Assembly: GCA_947036815.1 (NCBI GenBank)
Contig: CAMQRS010000014.1
Location: 1-36,414 of the forward strand
Direction of reading: 5' to 3'
Length of the DNA stretch: 36,414 bases
Origin: an uncultured Erysipelotrichaceae bacterium
Lineage (GTDB): Bacteria; Bacillota_I; Bacilli_A; Erysipelotrichales; Erysipelotrichaceae
Positions 3,160 to 21,002 of the stretch are shown here, piece after piece. The notes under the pieces are model-generated. The model was not told where the DNA came from and made no database searches. It was given only the letters and a program-made list of their open reading frames with translations. The translations under genes and the position numbers were made by a program. Every line of letters begins with the position of its first letter. Position 1 is the stretch's first letter.

Positions 3160-3186
3160 ATAATATAACTAAATGGAGGAATGGCA

Positions 3187-4737
3187 ATGTCAAGTACAGC
3201 ACAAAGAGCAGAGATACAATCACAAATATGGAAAATAGCGAACGATGTTCGTGGATCAATAGATGGATGGGATTTTAAACAATACGTATTAGGAACTTTA
3301 TTTTATCGTTTCGTTAGTGAAAACTTCACTGCCTATATAGAAGCAGGGGATACAAGTATTAACTATGCAGGATTATCAGATGACCTTATTAGTGATGAAA
3401 TTAAACAAGAAGCAATTATGACACAGGGGTACTATATAAGACCTTCACATCTATTTGTTAATATAGCGAAATCTGCAAATACAAACGAAAGTTTAAACAC
3501 GGACTTAGCAGATATATTTACAGCAATTGAAGCTTCTGCTACTGGTTATCCATCAGAAGATGATATCAAAGGACTATTTGCAGACTTTGATACAACAAGT
3601 AATCGCCTAGGAAATACAGTAAAAGATAAAAACTCTCGATTAGCTTCCGTTATTAAAGGGGTAGAAGGACTTACCTTTGGTAGCTTTGAAGATAGCGACA
3701 TTGACTTATTCGGTGATGCGTATGAGTATTTAATTTCTAACTATGCAGCAAATGCAGGTAAATCAGGAGGGGAATTCTTTACTCCACAAAGTGTATCTAA
3801 ACTAATCGCTAAACTAGCAATGCACAATCAAACAACAATCAATAAAATATATGATCCAGCAGCGGGGTCAGGTTCATTGTTGTTACAAGCGAAGAAACAA
3901 TTTGATGCTCATATCATTGAAGATGGATTTTATGGACAAGAAATAAATCACACTACTTATAACCTTGCTCGTATGAATATGTTTTTACATAATATAAACT
4001 ATAATAAATTCAATATGAAACTGGGTAATACTTTATTAGATCCACACTTTGGAGATGATAAACCATTTGATGCCATCGTATCAAACCCACCCTATTCAAT
4101 CAACTGGATTGGTAGTGAAGACCCAACACTTATTAATGATGAACGCTTTGCACCAGCAGGTGTACTAGCACCTAAATCTAAAGCAGACTTTGCCTTCATC
4201 CTTCATACACTGAATTACTTATCAAGCAAAGGACGTGCAGCTATTGTATGTTTCCCAGGTATCTTTTATCGTGGAGGAGCAGAACAAAAAATAAGAAAGT
4301 ATTTAATAGACAACAACTTTGTAGAAACAGTAATATCATTAGCACCTAATCTATTTTATGGTACTTCTATAGCAGTTAATATATTAGTGTTATCTAAACA
4401 TAAAGAAAATACGACAACTCAATTTATTGATGCAAGTGGAGAAAATTTTTATAAAAAAGAAACAAATAATAATGTTTTAACAGAAGCTCACATTGATGAA
4501 ATAGAAAGAATATTTGATTGCAAAGAAGAAATAGAATATATCGCTACATCCGTAGACAATAGTAAAATTGCAGAAGAAAACTACACACTATCTGTAAGTA
4601 CATATGTAGAAGCGAAAGACACAAGAGAAGTAATTAATATAGTAGAACTTAATGCAGGATTGAAAACTACAGTATCAAAGATTAATAAACTTCGTAAGGA
4701 AATAGATACTATAATTTCTGAAATCGAGGAAGCTTAA
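3187..4737 (+). CDS. hsdM: Type I restriction-modification methyltransferase subunit HsdM (EcoR124I-like)
   Basis: HsdM is the catalytic adenine-N6 methyltransferase, working as an M2S1 complex. The protein (516 residues) has the N-terminal HsdM region ([20 protein letters not shown]), the type I signature [14 protein letters not shown], the SAM-binding motif [10 protein letters not shown] (about residues 223-231) and the catalytic motif IV NPPYS (about 300-304). By memory of the family it is close to EcoR124I HsdM, placing it in type IC. The ATG at 3181 sits one base from GGAGG (3175-3179). The ATG at 3187 has normal spacing and gives [12 protein letters not shown], so that start is used. 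hsdS begins one base after its stop. Confidence 0.95.
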
Positions 4738-4738
4738 A

Positions 4739-5884
4739 GTGAGTAAGTTAAATGACTTAATCGAAGAACTATGCCCGAATGGGGTGGAGTATAAAGCTTT
4801 AGAATTCTGCTGCAAAAATTTAGATAACAAAAGAAAACCTGTGACCAAATCGGATAGAGAGCAAGGTGAATATCCTTATTATGGAGCGAATGGAATACAA
4901 GATTATGTATCAAATTATATTTTCGATGGAACTTATGTGTTGGTAGGTGAGGATGGAAGTGTTCTAACAAAAAGTGGCACACCTATGGTTACTTGGGCAA
5001 AAGGGAAGATATGGGTAAACAATCATGCGCATATAATTGAAGAGATAGAAGGAGTATCACTTAGATTTTTATTTCATTATTTACAAACTATAAATATCTC
5101 AAAACTTATTCATGGGAACATACCCAAACTAACAGGTAAAGATTTTAAGGCTCTTGAAATTCCTCTCCCACCTCTACCTATTCAAGAAGAAATTGTACGT
5201 ATACTAGACACTTTCACAGAGCTTACAACAGAGCTTACAACAGAGCTTACAGCAAGAAAGAAACAGTATGAGTATTATGAAAATAATATTATTTTTAATC
5301 AAAATTACAATAATGTGATGTTAAATAAGGTTTGTAATGTGAATCAAGGGTTACAAATTCCTATAAGTCAAAGAAAAATTGAGAGTGGGGAAAATAGGTA
5401 CTTTTATATAACAGTGCAATTTTTAAAGGGGACTAATGAACTTTACTACATTGAAAATCCAGCATCAAGCGTTATTTGTGAATGTGATGATATATTGGTG
5501 ACTCGTACTGGTAGCACGGGGAAAATCATAACAGGTGTTAGAGGTTGCTTTCATAATAACTTTTTTAAAGTGAATTGTTTTGATACTATAAATAAAAGAT
5601 ATATGTATTATGTGTTAAAGAGTAAAAAAATATTTGATAAGATGCTGAGAACTGCATCAGGAGGGACGGTCCCTGATTTGCCTCATGGGAAGTTTTATAA
5701 AATTGAAATTCCTCTCCCTCCCCTTGAGGAACAACAGAGAATAGTTGATATATTGGATCGCTTTGATATGCTTTGTAATGATATATCACAGGGGTTGCCT
5801 GCGGAAATAAAGGCGAGACAACAACAGTATGAATATTATAGAGATAAACTACTTACATTTAAGAATTTAGATGTAGAGAGTTAA
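4739..5884 (+). CDS. hsdS: Type I restriction-modification specificity subunit HsdS
   Basis: HsdS (381 residues) recognises the bipartite DNA target. Two variable target-recognition domains (about 1-140 and 190-322) are each followed by a conserved segment beginning IPLPPL (about 141 and 324) and a helix ending in Q-YEYY. The central conserved region holds three tandem copies of a four-residue unit (TELT, residues 160-171), encoded by perfect 12-bp repeats. It starts with GTG at 4739, one base after the hsdM stop, with GAGGAAG upstream inside hsdM, so translation is probably coupled. The recognition sequence cannot be predicted by eye. There is no second or inverted hsdS copy in the window. 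Confidence 0.93.
   Translation: MSKLNDLIEELCPNGVEYKALEFCCKNLDNKRKPVTKSDREQGEYPYYGANGIQDYVSNYIFDGTYVLVGEDGSVLTKSGTPMVTWAKGKIWVNNHAHIIEEIEGVSLRFLFHYLQTINISKLIHGNIPKLTGKDFKALEIPLPPLPIQEEIVRILDTFTELTTELTTELTARKKQYEYYENNIIFNQNYNNVMLNKVCNVNQGLQIPISQRKIESGENRYFYITVQFLKGTNELYYIENPASSVICECDDILVTRTGSTGKIITGVRGCFHNNFFKVNCFDTINKRYMYYVLKSKKIFDKMLRTASGGTVPDLPHGKFYKIEIPLPPLEEQQRIVDILDRFDMLCNDISQGLPAEIKARQQQYEYYRDKLLTFKNLDVES
5216..5251 (+). repeat. Three perfect 12-bp tandem repeats in the hsdS central spacer
   Basis: The unit ACAGAGCTTACA occurs at 5216-5227, 5228-5239 and 5240-5251, adding four residues per copy (TELT). It lies between the two recognition domains. In EcoR124I-type enzymes two versus three copies of a comparable TAEL unit changes the spacing of the DNA target by one base pair. 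Slippage or unequal recombination here could switch specificity. Confidence 0.92.
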
Positions 5885-5983
5885 TAGAAAAGATAGTATA
5901 TAAGAATATAAAGTAAGGGTAATAGAAAATGATATGAATGTGCCTGTAGTGAGTAACTATGGTGAATAAAGGAGTAACTAATT

Positions 5984-8900
5984 ATGGATGCTTATAATAC
6001 GATTGCAGAGTCTAATAACTTCATAGTATTAGATAAATATAATAAAATACAACAGAGTGGTGCTGGTTATCAAAGTGAGGCTGAGTTAGAGCGTGAATTG
6101 GTAACTGATTTAAAGAATCAGGGGTATGAAAGTCTACCAAGATTAACGACTCCTAAACAGATGTATGATAATGTACGTGTGCAGTTACAAATATTAAATG
6201 ATAAACAATTTAGTGATGATGAGTGGAAGCGTTTTTGTGATGAGTATTTGGATAAACCAAGTGATAATCATGTGGATAAAACACGTAAGATTCATAATGA
6301 TTATATTTATGATTTTGTGTTTGATGATGGTAGTATAAAAAATATCTATCTTGTGAATAAGAAGGATATTACGAGAAATAAGTTACAAGTTATTTCTCAG
6401 TTTGAACAAAAGGGAACGCATGCGAATAGATACGATGTAACTATCTTAGTGAATGGATTACCTTTGGTTCAAATAGAGTTGAAAAAACGTGGAGTAGCGA
6501 TGCAAGAAGCGTTTAATCAAGTACATAGATATAGTAAAGAGAGTTTTAATTCAGATAACTCTTTATTTAAGTATCTACAAATATGTGTGATATCAAATGG
6601 TACAGATAGTCGCTATTTTGCGAATACTACGAAACGTGATCGAAACAGTTATGACTTTACAATGAACTGGGCAAGAGCAGATAATACACTAATTAAAGAC
6701 TTAAAAGATTTTACAGCTACTTTTTTTCAAAAGATAACTTTGTTGAATGTGTTACTTAAATATTCAGTATTAGATACAAGTGATAATTTACTAATAATGC
6801 GTCCGTATCAAATAGCAGCAACAGAGCGTATTTGTTGGAAAGTGAAGAGTTCATATTTAGCGAAAACATGGAAAACAGAACAGAGTGGTGGATATATTTG
6901 GCATACTACGGGGTCAGGAAAAACCCTAACTAGTTTTAAAGCAGCTCGTTTGGTTACAGAGTTTGATTTTATTGATAAAGTATTCTTTGTTGTTGATAGA
7001 AAAGATTTAGATTATCAAACAATGAAAGAGTATCAACGTTTTTCTCCTGATAGTGTAAATGGTTCAGAAAATACAGCAGCACTTAAACGTAATATTGAAA
7101 AAGAAGATAATAAAATTATAGTAACAACGATTCAGAAATTAAATAATCTAATTAAGAATGATACAGAACTAGACATATACAATAAACAAGTAGTGTTTAT
7201 TTTTGATGAAGCTCATCGTTCACAGTTTGGGGAAGCTCAAAAAAATATCAATAAGAAGTTTAAGAAGTATTATCAGTTTGGTTTTACAGGGACTCCTATC
7301 TTTGCTGAAAATGCATTGGGTGCAGAGACTACTGCTTCTGTATTTGGAAGAGAGTTACATGCGTATGTAATTACGGATGCGATACGTGATGAGAAGGTAC
7401 TTAAATTCAAGGTAGATTATAATGATGTACGTCCTAACTTTAAATATTTAGAAACTGAATTAGATGAGAATAAATTATCATCGACAGAAATGAAAGCAGC
7501 ACTGTTGCATCCGAAGCGAATTGAAGAGGTATCACAATACATTCTATCTAATTTTAGAACGAAAACACATCGTAATTACCCGGGAAATAAAGGCTTTAAT
7601 GCCATGTTTGCTGTGAGTAGTGTAGATGCTGCTAAATTGTATTATGAAGCGTTAAATGACTTGCAAAAGGGAACTGATAAACCATTGAGAATAGCTACTA
7701 TCTTTTCATTTTCTGCAAATGAAGAACAACATGCTATGGGAGAGATAGTAGATGAATCATTTGAACTTTCTGCCATGGATAGTAGTGCAAAGGAATTCTT
7801 AACACAAGCAATTCAAGATTATAATAAAATGTTTGTGACAACATATGGAGTCGATAGTAAGGAATTTCAAAACTATTATCGTGACCTAGCGAAGCGAGTG
7901 AAGAGTCAAGAGATTGATTTATTAATTGTAGTAGGTATGTTTTTAACTGGTTTTGATGCACCGACACTGAATACACTGTTCGTGGATAAAAACTTACGTT
8001 ATCACTCACTGTTACAAGCGTTCTCAAGAACGAATCGTATTTATAATTCTACGAAAAAGTTTGGAAACATTGTTACGTTTAGAAACTTGGAACAAGCAAC
8101 AGTAGATGCGATTACTTTGTTTGGTGATAAAAACACTAAAAATGTGGTACTTGAAAAAAGCTATGCAGAATATATGCAAGGATTTAAGGATATAACAACA
8201 GGAGAAGCTCGTAGAGGGTATATCGAAGTGGTGAATGAATTACATACTCGCTTCCCTGATATTGATGACATTGTTACTGAAAAAGATAAGAAAGAATTTA
8301 CGAAGTTATTTAGTGAATATTTACGTATGGAAAATATACTACAAAATTATGATGAATTTTCTAGTTTAAAAGCAATGCAGTTGATTGATATGAATGATCC
8401 TGAAGCAGTAGAGTTGTTTAAAGAGAATCATCATGTAACTGATGAAGACATAGTGGCGATGCAAGCGATTGCAATTCCTGAGGAAAGGACAATCCAAGAC
8501 TATCGTTCTACTTATAATGATATTCGTGAATGGATACGTCAGGAAAAAGCAGGAAAAGACATGGAAGAATCATCGATTGATTGGGATGATGTGGTATTTG
8601 AAGTAGATCTATTGAAGTCACAAGAAATAAACTTAGATTATATTTTAGAGTTAATTTTTGAGAATAATAAAAAAGTAAAAGATAAGGATAGTTTATTGGA
8701 AGAAGTGCGTCGTTTAATTCGTTCAAGTACGGGGAATCGTGCAAAAGAAAGTTTAATCGTCGATTTTATTCAACAAACAAACTTAGATGAGATAAAAGAT
8801 AAAGCGAGTATTATAGATGCATTTTTCTCTTTTGCTCAAGAAGAGCAAAAAAGAGAAGCAGAACTCTTAATTACAAGTGAAGAACTAAATGTTGATGCAG

Positions 8901-9082
8901 CTAAAAGATACATTATGACTTCATTAAAAAGAGAGTATGCAAGTGAAAAAGGAACAGAGCTATATGAAGCACTTCCTAAGATGAGTCCACTGAATCCTAA
9001 GTACTTAACGAAGAAACAAACGGTGTTTCAAAAGATGTCTGCCTTTGTTGAAAAGTTTAAAGGAGTGGGAGGATCACTATAA
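5984..9082 (+). CDS. hsdR: Type I restriction enzyme subunit HsdR (EcoR124I family)
   Basis: HsdR (1032 residues) is the motor and nuclease subunit that translocates and cuts unmethylated DNA. The nuclease residues are D151, E165 and K167 (RYDVT ... QIELKK), the same positions as I recall for EcoR124I. The helicase motor has Walker A TGSGKT (309-314), motif Ia [15 protein letters not shown] (408-411, where EcoR124I has DECH), GFTGTP, and motifs V and VI ([13 protein letters not shown] and [13 protein letters not shown]). The C-terminal assembly region ends [10 protein letters not shown]. It starts at ATG 5984 with AAAGGAG nine bases upstream, 99 bp after hsdS. Length and motifs are intact, so the system looks functional. 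Confidence 0.96.
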
Positions 9083-9127: not shown

Positions 9128-9156
9128 TTGTAATATTATTGTATTTAAATTATAAT
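9128..9156 (+). promoter_or_regulatory. metK promoter
   Basis: TTGTAA (9128-9133) and TATAAT (9151-9156) are separated by 17 bp. Transcription would start about 9162-9165, only a few bases before the 5' strand of the riboswitch P1 helix. The resulting leader is about 175 nt. Confidence 0.75.
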
Positions 9157-9169
9157 AAACATGTAAAAA

Positions 9170-9309
9170 TTATCAAGAGTGGAGTAGAGAACTAGCTCAC
9201 ATCCCACACCAACCTGCGTAAACATATATATATGTAAGGTGGTACCGCTAGCATACGATAAGAGAAGAATCGATAGACACAACTGCCTTCTCTTAGAAGG
9301 CAGTTTTTT
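9170..9309 (+). ncRNA. SAM-riboswitch-like leader of metK with terminator (P4-less SAM-I-clan variant)
   Basis: P1 is TTATC (9170-9174) with GATAA (9257-9261). TTATCAAGAG is the usual SAM-I opening. P2 is GUGG (9179-9182) with CCAC (9204-9207) and GAG (9187-9189) with CUC (9196-9198). Loop CUAG (9192-9195) can form a pseudoknot with CUAG (9248-9251). P3 opens CAACC and closes AAGGUG (9236-9241). The terminator stem is 9281-9291 with 9295-9305, then six T. The antiterminator TAAGAGAAG (9259-9267) is fully complementary to 9287-9295 and overlaps P1, giving a SAM-off switch. The normal P4 hairpin and kink-turn bases are absent. A T-box reading was considered and rejected. Confidence 0.72.
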
Positions 9310-9336: not shown

Positions 9337-10437
9337 ATGAAAGATTACATTTTTACAAGTGAAAGTATAACTGAGGGACACCCAGATAAGATTTGCGATA
9401 TGATCGCAGATTCAATTTTAGATGCTGCTTTAAGTCAAGATGCAAATGCAAAGATGGCTGTAGAAGCAACAATTAAAGATGATTTTGTATTAGTTTATGG
9501 AGAAGCAAACACAAGTGCAATCATAGACTATGCAGCGATTGCGAAAGCAACGATTAAAACAATCGGATATGACGAAGAATACACAGTAGTAGTAAAAGTA
9601 AACAAACAATCAAGTGAGATTAACTCTGCGGTTGTCAATCAAAGCGCTGGAGAAGTAGGAGCTGGAGACCAAGGAATTATGTTTGGTTATGCATGTAATG
9701 ATACAAATGAATACATGCCTGCACCAATCTATTATGCACATTTATTGGCAAGACAATTAACGAAAGTTAGAAGAGCAAACCCGTTATTGAAACCTGATGG
9801 TAAAACACAAGTAAGTGTAGAATACAAAGACGATAAAGCAATTCGTATTGATACGATTGTGGTAAGTACACAACATGCCAAAGAAGCAACACAAGGCCAA
9901 ATTAGAGAAATCATCATGAATGATGTTATCCTACCTTGTATTGATACGAACATGATCGATGAAAACACGAAATTTTTAATTAATCCAAGTGGAAGTTTCA
10001 TCGTTGGTGGAAGTTTTGGAGATTCAGGAACGACTGGAAGAAAAATAGTAGTTGATACATACGGTGGTATGGGACGTATTGGAGGAGGATGTTTCTCTAG
10101 TAAAGACCCTACTAAAGTAGATCGTAGTGCAGCATATTATTCTCGTTACGTTGCAAAAAACGTAGTAGCAAATAAATTAGCTCAAAAATGTGAAATCCAA
10201 GTTGCTTATGCAATCGGTAAATCACACCCAGTTTCAATATGTGTTGATACATTTGGAACAGGAGTTAAAGCAGACGAAGAATTATTAGATATTATTAAAG
10301 CGAACTTCAACTTTGAAGTTGGAAATATCTTGAATGAATTAGAATTGAGAAACCCTATCTACTTTAGAACAGCATGTTATGGACACTTTGGTGATCCAGC
10401 ATTTAGTTGGGAAACAGTAAAACAAATGAAATTTTAA
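9337..10437 (+). CDS. metK: S-adenosylmethionine synthetase MetK
   Basis: MetK makes S-adenosylmethionine from methionine and ATP in the cytoplasm; SAM also serves HsdM upstream. The family motifs are ESITEGHPDK near the N-terminus, GAGDQGIMFGY (signature 1) and KDPTKVDRSAAY. Signature 2 reads GGGCFSSKD instead of the usual GGGAFSGKD, and the segment usually written NPTGRF reads NPSGSF, so it is a divergent member. The start at 9337 has GGAAAGGAAA upstream and gives 366 residues, slightly short for the family; the ATG at 9316 lacks a good site. The riboswitch-like leader and terminator fit feedback by SAM. Confidence 0.95.
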   Translation: MKDYIFTSESITEGHPDKICDMIADSILDAALSQDANAKMAVEATIKDDFVLVYGEANTSAIIDYAAIAKATIKTIGYDEEYTVVVKVNKQSSEINSAVVNQSAGEVGAGDQGIMFGYACNDTNEYMPAPIYYAHLLARQLTKVRRANPLLKPDGKTQVSVEYKDDKAIRIDTIVVSTQHAKEATQGQIREIIMNDVILPCIDTNMIDENTKFLINPSGSFIVGGSFGDSGTTGRKIVVDTYGGMGRIGGGCFSSKDPTKVDRSAAYYSRYVAKNVVANKLAQKCEIQVAYAIGKSHPVSICVDTFGTGVKADEELLDIIKANFNFEVGNILNELELRNPIYFRTACYGHFGDPAFSWETVKQMKF

Positions 10438-20135: not shown

Positions 20136-21002
20136 GTGCTATTATGCACGTTAATATATTTCAGTAATAAAAATGAAGTGGTAAACAATGTGAGTGACCC
20201 GTATCAGGTGGAATCTACTTGGACGGAATCAAATGTTAGAGAAGATGAATTCATGAAGCTAGTTGATACCTATTTAATAGAAGAAGGAATAGAAGATAAT
20301 GTTGGAATTTATATACATAACTTTGAAAGTGATTTTGTTTATACAAAGAATAGTGATGTTTACTTTACTGCAGCAAGCACATATAAATTGCCACTAGTTA
20401 TGCTTTACTATGAATTTATAAATAGTGGAGAATATTCAATGGATACGATGTTTCAATATAAAGAATCTCACTTTGAACCAGGTGGAGTAATTTGTGATAT
20501 GTATGTAGTAGGAGATATAATAAGTTTGAAAGAATTATTAGAGTGCGTTATCTTATATTCTGATAATACAGGTGCTCATATACTTTTTGATAATTTAGAA
20601 TATACAGATGAGGATGGATATACAGCAGGATGGATTGCCTATAAGGAGGCAATTACTAAGTATAGTGACCAATCTTATGAACCAATCTTTTTTAGTTACG
20701 ATAATATAATGAGTGCAAATTACGCGAATGATACACTGACTTATCTATATACAAATAGCGATGAATTCGAAACATTGGTGTCGCATTTGGAGCAAGCGAT
20801 GCCAATCCAATACTTAAATGCCAATATACCTGAAGTGGAAATACAAAAGTATGGAAGCTATCTTAGTGCAACTAACTCAATAGGTTTAGTCATGGAAGGT
20901 AGTCCTTACGCAATTTCAATCTTTACTAGTTTAGGGGTTGATGGAGAAAGACATATAGGAAATATTAATGAAATAGCATATACATACTTTAATGGAAAGT
21001 AG
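20136..21002 (+). CDS. Serine hydrolase of the class A beta-lactamase fold (5' end interrupted by a stop codon)
   Basis: The frame from GTG 20136 encodes 288 residues. The active-site set of penicillin-binding/class A enzymes is visible: S81-T-Y-K84 (AASTYKLPL) and S142-D-N (YSDNTGAHIL), with a KYG triad (QKYGSYLSATNS) where KTG is usual. Such proteins can be beta-lactamases, but many Bacillota homologs lack proven activity on beta-lactams. The intact gene would begin at ATG 20082; a TAA at 20121 interrupts the signal anchor. Translation might restart at ATT 20124 or GTG 20136, or the gene may be a fresh pseudogene or contain a sequencing error. The body is otherwise undamaged. Confidence 0.75.
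   Translation: MLLCTLIYFSNKNEVVNNVSDPYQVESTWTESNVREDEFMKLVDTYLIEEGIEDNVGIYIHNFESDFVYTKNSDVYFTAASTYKLPLVMLYYEFINSGEYSMDTMFQYKESHFEPGGVICDMYVVGDIISLKELLECVILYSDNTGAHILFDNLEYTDEDGYTAGWIAYKEAITKYSDQSYEPIFFSYDNIMSANYANDTLTYLYTNSDEFETLVSHLEQAMPIQYLNANIPEVEIQKYGSYLSATNSIGLVMEGSPYAISIFTSLGVDGERHIGNINEIAYTYFNGK

Follow-up and report, generated by a model that had tools for sequence, protein, structure and literature searches.

The metK leader of an uncultured Erysipelotrichaceae bacterium is, with a probability that we put at about 0.9, a SAM-OFF riboswitch that acts by transcription attenuation and belongs to a compact SAM-I-like subclass lacking the P4 helix. Relatives of this leader in the same family share its short linker between P3 and P1, pair it with the P2 loop in a covarying pseudoknot, and keep the SAM-I pocket residues.

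The metK leader in the window

The window, that is, the whole stretch of 36,414 nucleotides that was analyzed, is one contig of a 1.68-Mb draft genome, and the host is a gut-type bacterium. At gathering thresholds, no Rfam family matched anywhere in the whole window. At relaxed thresholds, the sole meaningful match was to RF00162 (SAM-I), over its full length and just before metK, with 32.6 bits (E value, 8e-6) against a gathering cut-off of 44.4 bits; the score with RF01725 (SAM-I/IV), 30.3 bits, was likewise below its cut-off (41.1 bits). The genome has no other SAM-type element: the next RF00162 match reached 16.8 bits, and R1, a covariance model of the P4-less class that scores the window by construction because its training alignment includes it, found one place. 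None of 200 shuffles folded as well as the leader with its terminator (z, −3.0). The aptamer alone folded no better than shuffles (z, −0.9), as expected, since folding ignores both ligand and pseudoknot. Given the E value of the RF00162 match, the shuffles, and the family homologues with covariation (see below), the observation is more than chance, and the preliminary description of this DNA is supported in placing a SAM-clan OFF switch before metK; each element that it named was found, either exactly where it said or only a few bases away. The leader runs in the order candidate promoter, aptamer, terminator, and metK start codon (ATG at 9337) (Table 1).

Table 1. Features of the metK leader (positions in the window)
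Feature	Position	Strand	Basis
Candidate sigma-70-type promoter, TTGTAA-17-TATAAT	9128..9156	+	Pattern scan, 10/12 matches; consensus match only
SAM-clan aptamer domain without P4	9167..9264	+	RF00162, 32.6 bits, E 8e-6; RF01725, 30.3 bits; homologues in alignment A1
P1 5' strand, UUAUC	9170..9174	+	Pairs with 9257-9261; alignment A1
J1/2, AAGA, holding invariant G (9177), equivalent of SAM-I G11	9175..9178	+	Invariant in 75/75; numbering of PMC3764141
P2	9179..9207	+	P2a 9179-9182/9204-9207; P2b 9187-9189/9196-9198; eroded kink-turn 9183-9186/9199-9203
PK-1, P2-loop half, CUAG	9192..9195	+	Covarying pseudoknot columns
P3, ACC-A-(A)-CCU (9208-9215) with AGGUGGU (9237-9243); hairpin end 9216-9236	9208..9243	+	Invariant A1 columns
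J3/1 linker, 13 nt, ACCGCUAGCAUAC, in place of J3/4-P4-J4/1	9244..9256	+	11-13 nt in Rfam-found relatives; no hairpin room
PK-1, 3' half, CUAG	9248..9251	+	Covarying pseudoknot columns
P1 3' strand, GAUAA	9257..9261	+	Pairs with 9170-9174; alignment A1
Antiterminator 5' strand, UAAGAGAAG, overlapping P1 3' strand	9259..9267	+	9-bp perfect complement to 9287-9295
Intrinsic terminator hairpin, then U run	9281..9305	+	11 pairs, 3-nt loop
metK, S-adenosylmethionine synthetase	9337..10437	+	PF00438, PF02772, PF02773

Within P3, which carries the equivalents of the SAM pocket residues A45, A46, U57, and G58, CCAACC lies at 9209 to 9214 and AAGGUGG at 9236 to 9242. The antiterminator overlapping P1 that had been proposed is present, and the stretch to which its 5' strand is perfectly complementary, CUUCUCUUA, makes up the 5' arm and loop of the terminator. 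When the leader in the window was folded without the 3' arm of the terminator, the antiterminator hairpin formed (−8.8 kcal/mol), while with that arm the terminator (−17.3) won. Among relatives, the longest complement of the P1-overlapping strand averaged 8.4 nt, versus 5.9 nt in shuffled controls (75 leaders), and a stable terminator-like hairpin with a U run followed downstream in 67 of 77 leaders. From this complementarity and the downstream terminators, transcription termination is therefore predicted when SAM stabilizes P1. SAM bound between P1 and P3 would stabilize P1, P1 would hold back the antiterminator strand, and the terminator would form, leaving metK untranscribed; at low SAM, the freed strand would pair with 9287 to 9295, no terminator would form, and metK would be read. 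The J3/1 linker, which is almost only the 3' half of PK-1, would take the place of P4 and, as its counterpart in SAM-I does, presumably pack P2 against P3. The sequence elements, their covariation, the complementarity behind the switch, the adjoining genes, and the lack of P4 throughout the class were observed directly; that SAM is the ligand, that it turns metK off, and that P2 and P3 pack in this way are what we infer from them.

On the same contig, the genes of a type I restriction-modification set (those for its modification, specificity, and restriction subunits) occupy 3181 to 9082 and stop 84 bases short of the aptamer. By eye, 43 to 1230 probably encodes a leucine-rich surface protein that has an LPXTG-like anchor, PKTGD, and a repeat present in two nearly identical copies, and an open reading frame at 20136 to 21002 resembles a serine beta-lactamase-fold protein with the motif AASTYKLPLVMLYY.

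A class of leaders without P4

RF00162 at an E value of ≤1 had matches in 77 of 96 genomes of the same family. Relatives that carry the leader belong to Holdemanella, Faecalitalea, Faecalicoccus, Erysipelothrix, Solobacterium, and other named genera of Erysipelotrichaceae. Most of the P4-less leaders lay directly upstream of metK, and their common layout is UUAUC-AAGAG, a split P2 with the loop GUUAGC, CCAACC, P3, GGUGGU, 11 to 13 nt including GCUAAC, and GAUAA. The lack of P4 first remarked in the single leader proved to be class-wide: in 61 leaders of the family, window included, the linker between P3 and P1 was only 11 to 13 nt, and because RF00162 expects P4 in that very gap, its absence is not a product of the search. 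Long Rfam matches that might have hidden a P4 (L047, L117 to L119, and L125) had the same 12-nt linker, the model being stretched past P1, and conservation across the class rules out a deletion or an assembly artifact as the cause. Canonical copies with P4 also exist in the family (L039 to L046, UCCUACAGA..UCUG), before more distant metK genes (43 to 51% identity to that of the window). Among the 61 P4-less leaders, 24 exceeded the SAM-I cut-off, 5 others (L101, L104, L121, L098, and L095, all before metK) exceeded the SAM-I/IV cut-off only, and 32 exceeded neither. Rfam would therefore split one homologous class between families, and, with about half of these switches (32/61 in the family) missed by its cut-offs, metK control is under-annotated in Erysipelotrichaceae and their relatives.

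To measure covariation, 75 P4-less leaders, window included, were aligned without reference to structure (alignment A1). Across P1, P2, P3, and PK-1, 97.3% of the cells were paired, with 112 double-sided changes versus 26.7 ± 8.5 in shuffle controls that ignore phylogeny, and the signal was lost when the partner was slid by one to three columns. Half of the J3/1 linker pairs with the P2 loop; in this pseudoknot alone (PK-1), 98.9% of the cells were paired and 25 double-sided changes were counted (3.6 in shuffles), four of the five pairs varying in both partners (UA/CG at two of them, GC/AU at one). The CUAG/CUAG pairing suggested beforehand is supported as a P2-loop pseudoknot that covaries in the class. 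The equivalents of G11, C44, A45, A46, U57, G58, U7, and U88, together with the P1 pairs A6-U88 and U7-A87, were invariant in all 75 leaders, including that of the window (SAM-I contact residues numbered as in PMC3764141).

With stricter filters that lose weak matches, as also applied in the family surveys with RF00162 and RF01725, R1 matched 125 of the 395 genomes surveyed from the taxonomic class and 106 of the 392 surveyed at the phylum level. In the further families, most matches had the short linker. Pattern searches found P4-less copies in Clostridium, Alkaliphilus, Peptacetobacter, and Pyramidobacter as well. The pattern used to fetch L132 to L211 fixed both how long the linker is and part of the pseudoknot 3' strand, so these copies are not independent evidence for either, as the set found with RF00162 is. 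Outside the family, the genes adjoining the P4-less form were metK, metF, ahcY, the metH activation domain, metY-like, and metN; all belong to the methionine/SAM cycle.

Compared with its relatives, the window copy is the weaker one: it scores below the Rfam cut-off, its PK-1 has 4 bp plus an A-C mismatch where relatives have 5 bp, and its kink-turn is eroded. In the SAM-I kink-turn, two sheared pairs in tandem, A20-G35 and G19-A36, are conserved (PMC3764141). In the class, the A-G pair was kept in 68 of 75 leaders, and the second pair was G-A in 26 and U-A in 43. The leader of Holdemanella biformis (L110) is one relative whose kink-turn is intact. No kink-turn with tandem G-A pairs was found in P2 of the window (3-nt bulge plus GA missing on the 3' side); this side is two bases shorter than in most relatives, and without them the window cannot form the motif. 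A four-base P2 junction was also present in L111 and L179. The preliminary description thus holds for the window in calling the kink-turn noncanonical, but not for the class, in which it is kept by most members and eroded in a few others (two more seen).

Affiliation within the SAM clan and competing readings

Four helices define SAM-I, P4 among them. The leaders resemble SAM-I in the P1-P2-P3 core, the pocket residues, the kink-turn of most relatives, the methionine genes that follow, a PK-1 joining the P2 loop to the strand that follows P3, and a terminator and antiterminator overlapping P1. They differ in the missing P4 and the short linker that replaces it, in a 5-bp PK-1 adjoining P1, in the frequent U-A at the second kink-turn pair, in the conserved P3 pair G43-C59, which is flipped to C-G in 75/75 leaders, and in that about half of them fall below the Rfam cut-off. 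SAM-IV is likewise without P4 and shares PK-1 and the core pocket, but adds PK-2 and P5 (PMC6890682; PMC2864571), neither of which was found in the leader class; RF00634 had no match in the genome at an E value of ≤10. Complementarity between the P3 loop and sequence 3' of P1, which PK-2 would require, showed no excess, at 4.29 versus 4.15 ± 0.11 in re-paired controls (75 leaders), and the position of P5 is occupied by the terminator. Because the RNA is nearest to SAM-I in mechanism, yet lacks P4 and, in the window copy, the kink-turn, we classed it within the SAM clan as a SAM-I-like variant without P4. Among the options raised beforehand, this corresponds to a further variant, and assignment to SAM-IV or SAM-I/IV found no support.

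Membership in SAM-I/IV rather than SAM-I is the alternative closest in score, RF01725 nearly tying with RF00162 at the locus and scoring above its own cut-off in 5 of the 96 genomes of the family. Its Rfam consensus has no P4, shows CCAACC/GGUGG in P3 with the same flipped pair (gcCAACC/GGUGgc), and shares the common SAM core. We nevertheless consider it improbable, since SAM-I/IV has an undivided P2 with no internal loop (PMC2864571) and no PK-1 (PMC6890682), both of which the leaders possess, and since PK-2 and P5 find no counterpart here. That the window leader is a decayed, nonfunctional SAM-I remnant, as its eroded kink-turn, weakened PK-1, and low score might suggest, appears very unlikely: nothing has been lost from the pocket, P1, the antiterminator, or the terminator, the complementarity is perfect, the leader is the genome's sole SAM-type element and stands before metK, and the two other genomes with a shortened P2 junction keep PK-1.

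Sequence by itself does not reveal which ligand is preferred, and a related compound such as SAH might be bound instead of SAM; we regard this as highly improbable in view of the unchanged SAM-I contact positions, including the near-sulfonium U7 and U88 equivalents, and of adjoining genes for SAM synthesis and the methionine cycle. Hardly credible is a SAM/T-box hybrid that would also sense tRNA through AAGGUGGUACCGC, an option raised by the identity of a 13-nt string, AAGGTGGTACCGC, with the T-box core and not without precedent, as the expression platform of a SAM-I leader in Xanthomonas binds initiator tRNA (PMC7270179). In other parts of the genome, RF00230 found 17 convincing T-boxes; at the metK leader it had no match and so did not score above the SAM models, and the leader has neither a specifier stem nor an antiterminator bulge. 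The string consists of the usual 3' strand of P3 and the linker after it: GGUGGU belongs to P3, the UGG that would face the tRNA CCA is base-paired there, and ACCGC occurs at this place only in this genome among the 75 aligned leaders. We therefore reject the hybrid and take the resemblance as chance.

It is possible, though we hold it only tentatively and as rather less than an even chance, that these SAM-I-like RNAs without P4 stand apart in the SAM clan as a widespread subclass of their own, one that joins the split P2 and PK-1 of SAM-I to the loss of P4 and the flipped P3 pair seen in SAM-I/IV, and of which the window would carry an extreme member working without a kink-turn. In the literature consulted, which was limited, we found no published description of a P4-less SAM-I subclass, and we assert no priority. 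A natural class that dispenses with P4 would show a smaller scaffold for the SAM pocket, linking SAM-I to SAM-I/IV and providing an obvious construct for structural work.

A second P4-less form

Another P4-less SAM-I-like form, CCATAAAGAG ... GACAAGCTC ... CAGCAACC ... AGGTGCTAAAGCTTGAAtGATGG with an 11-nt linker, was seen in many families of the same taxonomic class (L053, L057, L061 to L063, L067, L070, L290 to L294, L301, L304 to L309, L316, L317, L322 to L324, L328 to L331, and others), and a single genome may hold as many as five copies (G120). The form precedes a terminator and mostly nonmethionine genes, namely, those for PriA (twice), a glutamyl-tRNA synthetase-like protein, an AAA ATPase, an EamA permease, an ECF S component, DUF4116, and small unknown proteins; some copies stand before metK-like genes. 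In 13 of 46 loci, its 5' end, CCATAAAGAG, was complementary over 8 to 12 Watson-Crick nt to an CTCTTTATGG-like stretch just past the terminator (for example, L062, L053, L324, L057, L061, and L306), and complementarity of at least 7 nt was present in 21 of these loci versus 3.5 expected. Such pairing could lock out the aptamer after readthrough. One copy of this form was located on an uncultivated viral contig from IMG/VR (L348, 8342 to 8387).
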